Below are positions 23,884 through 58,481 of a DNA stretch of 64,000 bases, one piece after another. The DNA is from Spizellomyces punctatus DAOM BR117 (taxonomy: Eukaryota; Chytridiomycota; Chytridiomycetes; Spizellomycetales; Spizellomycetaceae): contig NW_015971539.1 of NCBI RefSeq assembly GCF_000182565.1, forward strand, positions 1,111,219 to 1,175,218. The letters are read 5' to 3'. Position 1 is the first letter of the stretch. Each line of letters begins with the position of its first letter. The position numbers and the translations under genes are program-made. The notes below the pieces were generated by a model that was given only the letters and a program-made list of their open reading frames with translations, had not been told where the DNA came from and made no database searches.

Positions 23884-23910
23884 TTATCACTTTGAGACAA
23901 ATAATAATGT

Positions 23911-23995
23911 ATAGGTGACAGAAACTGGCACTAGCTACTACACCAGGGAATAAACCAGCGTAAACTGGCTCGGGAAAAGCTAACTAAGCTACTAC
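23911..23995 (-). repeat. Relic of a Fanzor-element end
   Basis: This stretch lines up by eye with the ORF-downstream end of the Fanzor element at 55421-55518. Shared blocks in order on the plus strand are ATAG, TGGCACTAGC, ACACCAGGGA-like, AACC-GCG, GGCTCGG-AAAA, CTAA and CTAAGCTAC. The last block overlaps the Fanzor stop codon and the two codons before it, read on the minus strand (GTAGCTTAG). About three quarters of positions agree with a few gaps. No Fanzor-like coding sequence follows. It may be a decayed copy, or a short non-autonomous element keeping only the RNA-scaffold end. Confidence 0.6.
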
Positions 23996-24047
23996 TAGGC
24001 AATTATACACGCAATACGTAACGGTTGGTTCTAACCGTATAATTGCC
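23994..24047. repeat. Palindromic repeat, copy A
   Basis: The 11-base arms GGCAATTATAC and GTATAATTGCC are perfect inverted copies about 50 bases apart end to end. Inside them lies a second imperfect palindrome, AACGGTTGGTTCTAACCGT. A shorter related copy is at 61787-61830. This suggests a small mobile or structured repeat. It directly abuts the Fanzor-end relic. Confidence 0.55.
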
Positions 24048-24962
24048 CACCACCACATCGCGTTTCTACTGGGCCTTGATCCGGAACTGTTGATTGACAT
24101 TGAAGTCAGAGTCATCGCATGAGAGTTAATATCGTCAGGGAGACTCACAAGCCGGAGGATTTTCAGTAATGAAGGCTTGGAGACTAAACAAGTGCAAGTC
24201 AGCCAGATGACAGAAATGACAAGAAATGCCATCGGTACATACCAACCAAGCTCAACAAATGTGGCAGCATAATAGCAGTTTTGTTAGCGGATCTGATTGG
24301 TTGCCGCTGGTTCTGATCGCGGTTGCTGTCGGGCAGTTGAGGTCCTCGGCACCACCACATCTGCATTCTCATGATTGGACCGAGTCGCAATGAGAGTTGC
24401 GATGTGGGTCATGATGAGCGTTTGCGCAGATGGTTTGAGAGTCGAGGATGGGTAAAGAGGAAAGAGGGAAGAGACAGCAAAAGGCCCCCTTTTTATAGAC
24501 CTTTGGCATGTGCCTCACCGCAGGTTGGAGGAAAAAAAAAACATTACATTAGCATGCCACAGTGCTTTGATTAGCATGCATGCCTCACCGCTTTGAGGGA
24601 TAGATGGGGGTGCTGATTATGCGATATGATTAACCGGATTATCCGGATAATAATGGGTCTTCGTGCCATTTTCAATCGCCTCCACACTATGTTGCTTGTG
24701 TTGGAACACGTTGACTAAACTGTGCCACTCTTCATTTTGCCTATTTCGGAATGTCCAGTCGGCAAACGAGTCCAGATGGTCGCGAGCAAACGACCAACTC
24801 TGTTCTTGGTGACCGTTTGAACGCTCCAAAGTTCTTCCAACATCTTCGCGTCCTTTGGCATCGCTGGTAGCTTGGTTCTCACTGGCTTGGTTTCGCCTCT
24901 TGCTAGTAGCCACATAGCACAGAAGCTACGGGGAGACCTTCGGACTAGCGTTGGGCGGGCAA
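24048..24962. other. Intergenic region upstream of CDC45, possible small spliced gene
   Basis: Minus-strand ORFs starting at 24372 could be joined by short introns (donor GTATGT near 24243) into a small protein, but several frames are equally possible. Other minus-strand ORFs at 24617-24915 face CDC45 at under 50 bases. None shows a recognisable family. The region also has a poly-A run near 24534 and two close TTAGCATGC-like repeats. Confidence 0.3.
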
Positions 24963-53796: not shown

Positions 53797-54429
53797 TGAT
53801 ATTATGATCGTATTTTTTTTTGCCTATTTGGTTGGTTTTGTTTTGGTTGTTTTGTATTATTTGTATGTTTGGAGGGTTGTGGATAGGGACTGATTGTAAA
53901 TGTAGAATATTTTATTGGTTATGTTGGGATGCTTTACGAGTTTATTGTTTGTGATGGTTACCATGATGTTTGGATGTGTATCATTTTCATTGCTGAAGAA
54001 TGGTGAGAGTCGAGTAACTAGATAGCAATACTTACTGAAAAACGTAAATGCTCCATTCCCGATATCTCATCATGCTGTAAAATTCCGTTCTCTGACAATC
54101 CACTTATTTTTTCAATCTCCTCTTTTATCTTCCTGGATATAATTTAATCGTCATGCTGTGGGATGAACGGGGTTGGTGGGGTAAGAGGTCCTGGTCTTTA
54201 TGGAGAAGAAAACCGAGAATAACTTTACAAGAACCATACGTAGCATAGCCATCTACGCACACACACATCCAAAAATGCACAAGTTCTTGGGATGCTATGC
54301 TGAGGTCACCCAAATGGGTGACACTATTCCCATAACAACAACCCCATCACATGACATACACACGGTGCCGTTTAACAGCGTAATCAAACATCCTCCCCAA
54401 ATCCACTTTTGAACACAATTCCAAAAACA
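53797..54429. other. Intergenic region
   Basis: About 630 AT- and T/G-rich bases between two plus-strand genes. No gene is supported. Confidence 0.4.
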
Positions 54430-55161
54430 ATGCATTTACATTTCCCATTCCTCTTGTCGCTCCTAAGCATCCTCACACTAACGACCTCCCAAACCATAAA
54501 ACACATTTCCCAATCCGAACTCACCAAACTCGCCACCCAAGCCGACCAAAACATTACATTTATCCCCCACACGGTGTTCAAGCAGACGATATCCGATGGG
54601 ACCTGGTTGGTGTTTTTTGGGGCGAGGTGGTGCAAGTATTGTAAACAGTAGGTTTTCAATGTTTTGTTTGGTAGCTTTAGAATGGGAGTTGAAGTGTTGG
54701 GCGGTTTAGGTTGTCGCCGACTTGGTTGACGATTCAGGAGCGGGTGCTCGATGCGGTGCAGGGGATCAAGATGGGAAAAGTGGATTGCACGGATCAAGAA
54801 GGTAGGTTTTGGAAAGAGTGGATCTTTAAAGAAAAAGACAAGAGGGTTGATATCGATTTTCTTTAATACAGAGTTTTGTGAAGAGGAGGGTGTGGATGGG
54901 TATCCAACACTTCATCTGTACGTTATTTTTGCAATTATTTTGTTGGGTGTTGTAAATGATGGCTGATGACATGGCATAGATACAATAACGGTAAACTGAT
55001 TGAAGAATACGATCAAGGTCACGATCTAAAGAGTTTGTACACGTATGTTGTGACAAAGGTATGTTTTTTGTGTGTGTGGATTGTACTGGTGGTTCATGCG
55101 ATGGTAATTTGTTCATGTGTAGGCGAGTTATTATCAGAAATTGCGACGAGAGGATTTGTGA
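54430..55161 (+). CDS. Secreted thioredoxin-fold (PDI-like) protein
   Basis: Five exons (54430-54647, 54710-54801, 54872-54917, 54980-55058, 55123-55161) give 157 aa. A signal peptide (FPFLLSLLSILTLTTSQ) precedes a single thioredoxin domain with WLVFFGARWCKYCKQL (CxxC as CKYC), KMGKVDCTDQE, the cis-proline loop EEEGVDGYPTLHLY and NNGKLIEEYDQGHDLKSLYT. This is the length and order of one PDI catalytic domain. It is short for an ER oxidoreductase and has no KDEL-type end (it stops at RREDL). It probably acts on disulphides in the secretory pathway. The Fanzor element lies about 260 bases beyond its stop. Confidence 0.85.
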
Positions 55162-55420
55162 TATGTGTGATTGCGTGGTGATGATGGCGATGATGGTGAT
55201 GAGTTTGTGAGAACGGCGTGGGATGAGAGGATGGGAGCGGGTACGAGTAGAATGGGAATGCGGGGAATGATGGTAGATGTGAGGTCCATGATGGGACATT
55301 AGAAAGGACAAGGACGTGTCGAATAATGTGTGCCATCGTTGCCTAGAGGCATTTGTCGAGATAGGGCATATAGAATGTGTATGGGATAAACAAGCCTGTC
55401 CAGAGAATACAAGATGATGG

Positions 55421-55452
55421 ATAGTGCGGACGCCGGTGGGTATTGGCACTAG
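55421..55452 (+). repeat. Terminal inverted repeat, end downstream of the Fanzor ORF
   Basis: It starts ATAGTGCGGACGCC and ends TATTGGCACTAG. The other end matches it in reverse complement with one base gap and one mismatch. Confidence 0.9.
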
Positions 55453-55540
55453 CACCCGCACCAGGGATGAACCGCGCGACAACCGGCTCGGAAAACCTAA
55501 TCTAACCAATCTAAGCTACGGCTGGAACACCCCTGCTGAA
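55424..55540 (-). ncRNA. Predicted Fanzor omega (guide) RNA scaffold region
   Basis: In TnpB and Fanzor systems the guide RNA is transcribed with the nuclease, overlaps the 3' end of the ORF, runs to the element end and continues into flanking DNA, which supplies the guide. Here that region is the last codons of the ORF, 87 bases to the element end, and then flank below 55421 read on the minus strand. The stretch can fold: it contains the inverted repeat and GC-rich pairs such as CCGAGCCGGTTG. Conservation with the relic at 23911-23995 supports a functional scaffold. Exact ends are not visible. Confidence 0.6.
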
Positions 55541-57415
55541 CACTTCTGGTCTACCGTGTCCATCCAACATTGATTGCACGATCGTTAGCATATTGCAGGT
55601 GCTCAGCGTATCTCGATTCCAGTAGCGCATCGTCCAGGCTTGCTGCAAACAGTTAGGGTTGGTACAACCCAGCAATCCATGGACTTTTTCAATCTTGCCT
55701 TCTCGTCGTCGATAAGGTCTTGAATGAGGTCGTTCTTTGAATTTTTTCTCCACAAACTCAGATGAGGAACAGCGAGGGCAAACAGATGAGGTCTTGTACT
55801 CGTCGAGAAGGAAACAATCAATGCGGTTGCGCTTAAAGAGGGTGCGCCAGCCTTTTGTCTTTGATGAGGTCTGAAATCTTGCAGTTCGACCGGCGTCGCT
55901 CCAATCACCCATTACAACAGTAAGGTTTTCACCGTACTTGTTGCGCATGTTACTTATGAGGTCTGATTCGCTCTTCTGACGGTTTATGAAGGAGTGCCAT
56001 TTCCATCGAGTATGAGCAGGATGCGAATAGAAGTCCTTGCGGCGGTTCCAGTCGACACGACGGACGAGGAGGTAGCGGAGGAAATCCATGAGGTTCATCG
56101 TCTTGTGAGATGGTATTCGCGATTCTATAAGGTCCATTCCCGCTTCCTTCTTCATCCACTGCCGTTCCTTTTGCTGCCGACGGCTTCCAGTCTCCTTGCA
56201 GCGTTGATTGGCGGTGTAACGGAAGATGGTGCCCTTGTTGTCTTGGCAGTAGAGAACGTCGCGCTTGTTTGGGTCGATAACGACGACGTTCTCTGCTGCT
56301 CGACAAGCAGGCAAGTTTTTTTCCACATATACTGCCTTCACCTCAGCTGCTAGAGTCTTTGCCGACTTCTTCTTTCCTCCGCGCTTTCCGTACTTGTCGG
56401 CGTCAGGGTGTTTCAAATACACAGACACCGAGGTTCCGTCCGTCGTGATCGAGCCTTCAAACTGCATACCGCCGCCGCGGCGAGACCGAAAAGCCTTCGT
56501 GCGTAGATTGCAGACGCGCAACCACAGATCATCCTTTTCGACCGCTTCTGCCTCTCTGCGAAAAATGCAAAGAATGTGGGTGTAGAGAATGACGGTGTCA
56601 ATCCGGACATGGCTTTGAATGAGAGACCGGCGAAGAGGTATCGCGCTGAACCGTCGGAAGCCATGTCGTTCATACAGCCCAGAGAGTTTGCAGTACGCAG
56701 GAAAAAATGACATCGGATCAGCAACAATGGCGTAGGCAAGGGGATTGTCGGGAAGGAATGGGAGATCCAATGACCAGATCTCTTCTAGAAGTTCACTCTC
56801 TTCAGCAGTCAAATCATCGAGCGACTCAGGCACGATATCAAAAAGGAAAATTGACTTCAAGTAGCGAAGACGAGCAAAGAAAGCGTTTCGCGCATCGCTT
56901 TTCAGTGGTAGTCGCTGCTTCTGTCCCTTCAGATCAAGCCGCAGATTAATGTACCGGAGCAGCATCATCATGAAGTGTTCCTGGACATTGACCTTCAGAT
57001 TCGTCATCATACTCGCTGTCAGGTAATTGACTGATTGTTGCTCGCCTCGCAGGTTTGGATGAGAAAAATCAACGATGCGGCAGTACCGTCGAACATATGG
57101 CCACAAGCATTCACGTAACGCCTTCTTCGCATCAGTTTTTGGTTGCCACGATTCACCTTTGTTGAGAAGATAGAGGATGACTTCAATCGTCTCTTGATTT
57201 ACCGTGGGAAAAGCTGGTGCTGATGAAAGGAGATAGAATTTCAGTGCGTGGGAAGCATGGTTGGCGAGTTGATGGATGATGGCAATGTAATCTAGAAGCC
57301 GTTGGCGGGAGATCTCGTTTGGCAGGAAAGCTTTTGCAAAGGAAGTCTTGTTGCAGGTATGTAAGCAAGTAGGTTTGTCGAGTTTTTCGAGTTTTTGCTT
57401 TTTCTTTGGTGGCAT
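55511..57415 (-). CDS. Fanzor1-type RNA-guided nuclease
   Basis: An intronless 634-aa ORF, unusual beside its intron-rich neighbours. The N-terminus MPPKKKQKLEK looks like a nuclear localisation signal. The long N-terminal helical region (20-300) fits the WED/REC part. The TnpB-like RuvC nuclease begins at NVVVIDPNKRDVLY (Asp381 as the first catalytic acid). The usual RuvC-II Glu of TnpB is replaced in VVMGDWSDAGR; a Glu at 539 in FLLDEYKTSSVCPRC is a candidate substitute, as described for Fanzor1. A zinc finger has CPRC (546, 549) and GCTNPNC (584, 589). The last acidic residue is in NRDTLSTCN (Asp602). Eukaryotic Fanzors are RNA-guided DNA endonucleases related to TnpB and Cas12. The sequence agrees with what I remember of SpuFz1. 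Confidence 0.92.
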   Translation of the reverse strand: MPPKKKQKLEKLDKPTCLHTCNKTSFAKAFLPNEISRQRLLDYIAIIHQLANHASHALKFYLLSSAPAFPTVNQETIEVILYLLNKGESWQPKTDAKKALRECLWPYVRRYCRIVDFSHPNLRGEQQSVNYLTASMMTNLKVNVQEHFMMMLLRYINLRLDLKGQKQRLPLKSDARNAFFARLRYLKSIFLFDIVPESLDDLTAEESELLEEIWSLDLPFLPDNPLAYAIVADPMSFFPAYCKLSGLYERHGFRRFSAIPLRRSLIQSHVRIDTVILYTHILCIFRREAEAVEKDDLWLRVCNLRTKAFRSRRGGGMQFEGSITTDGTSVSVYLKHPDADKYGKRGGKKKSAKTLAAEVKAVYVEKNLPACRAAENVVVIDPNKRDVLYCQDNKGTIFRYTANQRCKETGSRRQQKERQWMKKEAGMDLIESRIPSHKTMNLMDFLRYLLVRRVDWNRRKDFYSHPAHTRWKWHSFINRQKSESDLISNMRNKYGENLTVVMGDWSDAGRTARFQTSSKTKGWRTLFKRNRIDCFLLDEYKTSSVCPRCSSSEFVEKKFKERPHSRPYRRREGKIEKVHGLLGCTNPNCLQQAWTMRYWNRDTLSTCNMLTIVQSMLDGHGRPEVFSRGVPAVA

Positions 57416-57548
57416 GATGATATCTGTGGAAAAAGACGAAAGCCTGGGAAAATGGGCACGACAACTTATATAGGACTTTTTGGATCAAACCAGAGTTCAT
57501 GAGTCTAAATCGAGTAAAATTATGATTAAATTGGTTGGAATCTTTGTA

Positions 57549-57579
57549 CTAGTGCCAATACCCATCGGCTCCGCACTAT
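57549..57579 (-). repeat. Terminal inverted repeat, end upstream of the Fanzor ORF
   Basis: It reads CTAGTGCCAATACCC to TCCGCACTAT on the plus strand. The base after it makes TATG, which is CATA on the Fanzor strand. CATA is the target-adjacent motif that I recall for SpuFz1. Confidence 0.9.
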
Positions 57580-57703
57580 GTACCTTGTAAGATATCGGAC
57601 GCTGAGTCACACGCGACTGTCCACGCAGCTAAGCAACACGCTTCTGGCTGTGATTCCCGCTGTGATTCCCACTTCAACTATTGTCTGTTTGACATTTTGC
57701 AAA

Positions 57704-58481
57704 ATGGCCCGTCACTCGACTAGCGCAGTGCGCCCCAGCACATCCCGCCAACCAAGCACCCCACCACCTCCACCAACCCCACCATCACCAGCCCTCTTTT
57801 CTCCCACCCCAATCCTCCACGACCCATACGAAACAGACATTGAAGACCTCACGACAGCAGCACTCGAAAAAACAGACGCATTTTTCCGGGAATTCAAGCT
57901 TTTTGTATTGCAGAATCGGGTCTTGGAGACGGGTGTGGGTGTTATTGTTGGTCAGGCGTATGTATTTATAAGAGATTTGCCAGAACGAGAGCATTTTGCC
58001 AATTCGGTCCATCATTATATAGATTCCAAGATTTTGTGCGTAGTTTTGTCAACGATGTCATGGTACCCCCTCTTACACTCGTCACCGGCCACCGCCTCAT
58101 CAACATCTTTTTTGTTCTCCGCCGAGGCAAAACCGGCCGTCGTCCCAAAACGATTGAAGAAGCCGCGACCGATGGAGCCGTGACAGTCAACCTAGGCCGA
58201 TTCATTCATCAGACACTCAATTTTTTTACGGTTGGGATGGCGGTGTATTGGTTTTTGAGGGGGTTGAGATGGTATTTTCGGTTACGAGTTCAGTTGCCGG
58301 ATACGAAAAAGTGTCCGTTTTGTTTGCAGGATGTTGCCTTGTTGGCTTCTAGGTGCGTGCGATACTTTGTTTGCTGGATGATTCATGTCTTTTCATGTTT
58401 TGTTTATTTTTTTTAATTGATTCTAGGTGTTGCTTTTGTACTTCGATGCTCTCGGAATCTCATGCACCCCCAACTGAATAA
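57704..58481 (+). CDS. Large-conductance mechanosensitive channel (MscL) with C-terminal zinc ribbon
   Basis: Three exons (57704-57957, 58023-58352, 58427-58481) give 212 aa. After a Pro/Ser-rich N-terminus of 50 residues comes the MscL core: FFREFKLFVLQNRVLETGVG, the first helix completed across the intron (VGVIVGQAFQDFVRSFVNDV) and MVPPL. The second helix is FFTVGMAVYWFLRGLRW. The C-terminus has LPDTKKCPFCLQDVALLASR then CCFCTS, a CxxC...CCxC zinc-ribbon pattern like that at the end of many bacterial MscL proteins. MscL opens on membrane tension to release osmolytes. Such channels are rare in fungi. The Fanzor element is inserted 125 bases upstream and may disturb its promoter. Confidence 0.88.

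Follow-up and report, generated by a model that had tools for sequence, protein, structure and literature searches.

An intact SPu-1 Fanzor element of Spizellomyces punctatus and the apparently mosaic make-up of its family

Fanzors are eukaryotic relatives of the CRISPR nucleases. The Fanzor1 family of the chytrid Spizellomyces punctatus was described in 2013 as SPu-1, an element of ~2.1 kb with one 633-aa ORF, terminal inverted repeats (TIRs) of 33 bp and a TA duplication; the Fanzor1 motif given there is D-X(125,275)-[TS][TS]-X-X-C4 zinc finger-X(5,50)-RD (PMC3627910). In 2023, the family was reported to comprise 42 loci, 19 of them full-length, in addition to 134 ghosts (PMC10432273). RNA-guided DNA cleavage was demonstrated for its member SpuFz1, whose metal-binding residues are D383, N385, E541 and D606; the protein requires CATA, any base change abolished cleavage in vitro, and the omegaRNAs of the ghosts function with it in human cells (PMC10432273). 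The same source already gives the conserved upstream CA, reports that no transposase was found between the SPu-1 TIRs and states the natural role of Fanzor for its element as unknown (PMC10432273). In eukaryotic elements the target duplication forms part of the RNA scaffold (PMC10711439). As for TnpB of IS200/IS605, it resembles these systems in being a RuvC nuclease with a right-end RNA guide and a left-end TAM; it differs in being bacterial, in moving by TnpA peel-and-paste and in having no TIR/TA element (see also PMC10432273).

The window analysed here, a whole stretch of 64,000 nt of S. punctatus DAOM BR117 (contig NW_015971539.1), comes from the genome studied in PMC10432273, so that its Fanzor copy is very probably one of the 42 published loci. 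The element and its kind are already known, and the view of the initial annotation, that this locus displays the native context of a known protein, has been overtaken because the 2023 survey had published that context for the family. The fresh point is the mosaicism of the copies, for which a limited literature search found no earlier report; this mosaic structure and a target that insertion seems to remove merit the attention of specialists.

The window element and its protein

The element sits between a thioredoxin-like exon, a weak match, and an MscL-like gene, and its parts are the following.

55424..57576, minus strand: SPu-1 Fanzor element, 2,153 bp, delimited by TIRs, TA and comparison with 40 other genomic regions
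57546..57576, minus strand: left-end TIR, from an arm search and the alignment of family ends
55424..55455, minus strand: right-end TIR, with a 1-nt insertion absent from 29 other aligned right ends
57577..57580, minus strand: CATA directly outside the left end, a SpuFz1-type TAM (PMC10432273)
55422..55423, minus strand: TA that flanks the right end and makes up the other copy of the duplication; here the junction sequence is ACTA and not CATA
55511..57415, minus strand: intact Fanzor1 ORF, 634 aa, with D381, N383, E539 and D602 and a zinc ribbon (CPRC 546-549, CTNPNC 584-589)
54409..54651, plus strand: neighbouring thioredoxin-like exon (Pfam PF00085, weak, below the cut-off)
57704..58413, plus strand: neighbouring MscL-like channel gene in two coding pieces, with splicing inferred (Pfam PF01741; piece 1 below the curated cut-off, piece 2 above it)

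The inverted arms 55432-55455 and 57546-57569 are 92% complementary over 24 nt, the full ends form an inverted match of 31-32 nt with one indel, and the target duplication is represented on the left by the TA of CATA (57577-57578). The initial annotation had proposed a minimal TIR/TA Fanzor element, and its 31-32 bp ends and flanking TA were indeed found in S. punctatus; the bounds given at the time, 55421-57579, enclose the element and are one base too wide on each side with respect to TA-element-TA. Like the SPu-1 elements described in 2013, the window copy has a single long ORF in ~2.1 kb, ~33-bp TIRs and TA, with CATA upstream of its left end; no difference in kind was seen, and the accessible part of PMC3627910 makes no mention of mosaicism or CpG decay. 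The remaining ORFs wholly within the element do not exceed 119 aa in the mechanical ORF list. Fanzor is the only long ORF inside, whereas an autonomous Tc1/mariner-type element has a transposase between its TIRs.

Regarding the protein, its description as a TnpB/RuvC-like Fanzor of 634 aa was borne out: residues 2-634 aligned with SpuFz1 (PDB 8gkh) with a score of 1240 bits, and Fanzor1 from Parasitella (9cf0) was matched with E=8e-49. The ORF (55511-57415, minus strand) contains no internal stops and is intact, as annotated. The four metal-binding residues of SpuFz1 correspond to D381, N383, E539 and D602, and the Fanzor1 motif reads in the translation as D381, T542-S543, C546...C589 and R601-D602; the loss of D381/D602 or of the zinc-finger cysteines, named beforehand as contrary evidence, was checked for, and all these residues are present. 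The N-terminus is basic (MPPKKKQK). Five of the six TAM contacts of SpuFz1 are identical, the sixth being R96, replaced by K93; five residue numbers from PMC11423790 disagreed with the SpuFz1 letters in the numbering used and were excluded from this comparison. A Pfam-A search with the window protein returned no family, yet the homologues listed bear a precomputed PF26935 assignment; the phage records searched gave no match, and none of the 40 homologues listed is identical to it.

The S. punctatus DAOM BR117 assembly (24.0 Mb, 29 contigs) yielded 70 scored tblastn matches to the window protein, so that the similarity is not due to chance; 14 of the 70 span at least 620 of the 634 residues and are stop-free. 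Among the copies, L009 (C17:213843-215756) agrees with the printed SpuFz1 residues at all 637 positions compared (100%), while the window protein shares 85.0% identity with SpuFz1; by this comparison, the window locus is therefore a paralogue of SpuFz1, not SpuFz1. The belief that it matches SpuFz1, expressed in the initial annotation, had the same species and family and the 1240-bit alignment in its favour; it is refuted by the 85.0% identity and by the perfect match of L009, another locus, which leave it practically no chance. The two copies have in common the genome, the family, the length class, the four metal-binding residues, the TIRs, CATA at the left end and an omegaRNA region at the right end; they differ in locus, in protein identity, in K93 for R96, and in two private indels in the omegaRNA region of the window copy. 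A second Fanzor subfamily, ~60% identical to the window protein, is represented by two neighbouring copies, L035 (C9:617499-619385) and L038 (C9:622459-624345).

Junctions, omegaRNA and ghost elements

The ends were compared between the window copy (L001) and 40 genomic regions, with 19 further regions left out; the counts cover copies with recognised ends and exclude L046, whose left end lost its first bases, and L017, whose right end and flank are masked as N. CATA precedes the left end in 23 of 24 readable copies and TATA in the remaining one, on a background of 421 CATA among the 5,968 NNTA of the window (7.1%). All 30 readable right ends are followed by TA, and the four bases before the guide read ACTA in 30/30; the mirror motif TATG occurs at the right-end flank in only 3/30, and the CATA preference is thus one-sided. 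Since SpuFz1 needs CATA and the occupied junction reads ACTA, the element would be expected to lose its own target on insertion: judging from these junctions, the empty allele seems cuttable and the occupied one not.

The RNA-coding parts at the right end were predicted as follows.

55424..55498, minus strand: predicted omegaRNA scaffold, ~75 nt, by analogy with PMC10432273, alignment and fold
55407..55421, minus strand: predicted 15-nt guide, TCCATCATCTTGTAT, from the omegaRNA length in PMC10432273

The omegaRNA region of the window copy has two 1-nt indels that are private among 30 right ends, and for this reason its guide RNA may not work. It is conceivable, if rather unlikely, that this copy is a protein donor only, which kept its ORF, has a damaged omegaRNA of its own and uses in trans the RNAs of other copies or of ghosts. 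The private indels and the activity of ghost omegaRNAs with SpuFz1 in human cells (PMC10432273) fit such a role; in contrast, the predicted fold retains both main stems and is no weaker than that of L009 (-31.4 vs -29.6 kcal/mol), and the same two stems were predicted from the final 77 nt through TA in all five copies folded. An Rfam search of 55300-57700 gave no match at E<=0.1. As for possible targets, the genome was searched for CATA plus 16 nt of the right flank of the window copy, with up to 3 mismatches: nothing was closer than the element's own ACTA junction, at 2 mismatches, six other sites had 3, and the reversed control gave 0. These six sites are a slight excess over the ~1.4 that we estimate for random sequence.

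The window also holds a second element, a ghost, with the following parts.

23907..24687, minus strand: ghost Spu-1 element, 781 bp, with no Fanzor ORF
24688..24691 and 23905..23906, minus strand: its flanking CATA and TA
23890..23904, minus strand: its predicted guide

The ghost Spu-1 elements of PMC10432273 share TA, CATA, a TIR and the right-end scaffold with the window Fanzor element, and differ in having no ORF and a different TIR. In the set of nine considered here (the window ghost and eight of the best 40 genome matches), 7 of the 8 left ends that could be read have CATA, and TA was found at 9/9 right ends; the left end of L068 was not found, and this ghost was left out of the left-end count and kept in the PHI test described below.

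Mosaic structure, divergence and decay

Which copy is most similar to the window copy depends on the part of the element, as a comparison in 150-bp steps shows: L037 is 98.7-100% identical over positions 1-300 and 1501-2153, although L023 marginally surpasses it in a single step, L011 and L014 are closest in 601-750 (98-99%), and L013 is closest in 751-900 (95%, with a median of 74.5%). Compared with L037 by 50-codon blocks, the window copy shows dS values from 0.00 to 1.44.

Recombination tests were run on 23 full-length copies, i.e., 29 minus six that were CpG-decayed or broken, and L035 and L038 of the ~60% subfamily were left out. Shared tracts scored above the maximum of 500 permutations in 68 of 253 pairs, PHI was lower than in 1000 of 1000 permutations (z = -40), and AU tests of five segment trees rejected every tree on the data of each of the four remaining segments. 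When clonal evolution was simulated eight times under the regional rates seen in the data, PHI z lay between +2 and +8 and 0-1 pairs stood out, compared with -40 and 68 in the real set; the simulated sets were richer in informative sites (754-791 vs 499). Clonality was also rejected by the nine ghosts (PHI z -8.2), which are mosaic too, so that the signal is not confined to ORF-bearing copies.

L015 and L016 are 98.1% identical and differ at 40 sites, 36 of which fall inside two 150-bp windows, while the null maximum in 2000 draws was 20; this window count was used because a gap-based clustering statistic failed to separate signal from null. In L016, the patches resemble L014 (99.1%) and L012 (99.3%), the trace expected of gene conversion, and one of them, 1266-1381, is internal and unanchored at an element end. 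On the strength of these alignments, the SPu-1 copies are mosaics, family-wide; an assembly artefact seems unlikely as the source among copies 10-20% apart. Because of the mosaicism, neither percent identity nor any single tree is a sound basis for dating SPu-1 copies or for inferring recent duplication, and the age of the window copy cannot be read from its overall identity.

Against the 28 other near-full-length copies, the window copy has dS of 0.37-0.79 and dN/dS of 0.11-0.17, averages that blend different histories because of recombination. An identity of 82% has been read as recent duplication or strong selection (PMC10432273); the values found here favour old divergence with constraint and exchange over recent duplication, as far as sequence comparison can tell. 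The initial annotation had taken the intact ORF to point to recent arrival or selection: the former finds no support in such dS values, and the latter is supported at the level of the family, given its dN/dS, rather than for the window locus itself. Nor is there any need to invoke a recent arrival in which several haplotypes were transferred horizontally, since 16 S. punctatus copies form a single clade (support 100) against P0007 and P0008, of which P0008 is without the usual N-terminus.

As for decay, 39 family copies together contain 48 premature in-register stops; TGA accounts for 45, 43 of them at positions where the window copy has CGN codons, and the window ORF also offers 22 CAA/CAG and 12 TGG codons as potential stop sources. 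With a CpG-aware family consensus, transitions reach 24-37% at CpG in 8 of 39 copies, compared with 3-7% at other C/G; the window copy has 10% and 8%, respectively, and the highest CpG observed/expected ratio (1.07). L029, L042, L026, L032, L040, L028, L043 and L048 are dead, with strong CpG loss and CGN-to-TGA stops. Dead copies thus decay through CpG loss, as far as their substitutions reveal, and this suggests methylation-driven decay, which fits the restriction of 5mC in Spizellomyces to transposons (PMC12695648).

Fanzor cutting or host recombination as the source of mosaics

The genome was searched for the transposase families DDE_3 (PF13358), PF13359 and PF03184. With DDE_3, a single intact IS630/Tc1-like gene (C3:533347-534561) and a piece of 33 residues were recovered, PF13359 gave no match, and PF03184 was uninformative, its control being as silent as the search itself; the intact DDE_3 protein, used as query, retrieved three further weak relics, the intact gene being single-copy. 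This gene (L061:1327-2544, minus strand, 405 aa) lies ~170 bp from a ghost and is a possible trans partner, which is not claimed here. In L061, no inverted repeats frame it and no SPu-1 TIR pair was found; the other resemblance to a SPu-1 end, at the start of the transposase ORF, has 9-10 mismatches in 28-29 bases and no preceding TA.

The following account starts from what is read directly in the sequence: TIRs, TA duplication, CATA on the left, a right junction without CATA, the active site, mosaicism and CpG decay. A transposase from elsewhere would move the element into TA, and transcription of the right end would yield an omegaRNA that takes its final ~15 nt from the flanking DNA. Guided by this RNA, Fanzor would cut a restored empty site (CATA plus guide) and spare the occupied one (ACTA plus guide); the break would then be repaired from the element-bearing chromosome, with the element regained, and such cut-and-repair may favour insertions that have CATA at the left end. 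During repair, patches from other family members might be copied in as well, producing mosaics. Taken as a whole, this explanation, in which the window holds an intact SPu-1 copy, paralogous to SpuFz1, in a family where Fanzor cutting and repair regain the element and generate mosaics, is considered probable. Against the mechanism stand the failure, here and in PMC10432273, to find a transposase between the TIRs, the two private omegaRNA indels of the window copy, the R96 to K93 change and the mosaicism of the ghosts; moreover, the internal L016 patch 1266-1381 would also be expected from ordinary ectopic gene conversion.

It is possible, though somewhat doubtful, that SPu-1 is an ordinary TA-inserting transposon, that host recombination of dispersed repeats makes the mosaics, that CATA is a preference of the transposase, and that Fanzor has no role in the exchange. 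The ORF-less ghosts, mosaic (PHI z -8.2, 9 copies) and sharing CATA, agree with this reading, as does at least one internal conversion patch, that of L016. The ghosts, however, do not separate the two readings, because they bear the omegaRNA scaffold too (PMC10432273), and near-symmetric TIRs with a TA-inserting transposase are not expected to give a one-sided CA (TATG in 3/30); the coincidence of CATA with the measured SpuFz1 TAM is also left unexplained.

Returning to Fanzor cutting and repair, a stronger claim is put forward tentatively, and regarded as unlikely as it stands: that the cuts made by Fanzor at empty CATA sites force repair from occupied ones and in this way both spread pieces of the element from locus to locus and maintain the family without a transposase in cis, the mosaics being their scars. 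Were this true, SPu-1 would represent RNA-guided homing in a eukaryote, its members being maintained together as a single recombining gene pool. The one-sided CATA, the motif-free occupied junction and the patchwork copies bear on the natural role of Fanzor, and a homing role becomes testable; transgene expression has been reported in S. punctatus, the chytrid host (PMC10432273).

Finally, two minor arrangements were noted among the family regions: L010 has a rearranged left end with two TIRs that point the same way and are separated by 74 bp (C17:397561 and 397635), and the right-end pieces at C7:276422-276785 and 283420-283783, 7 kb apart, have equal score, identity and stop count, perhaps by local duplication.
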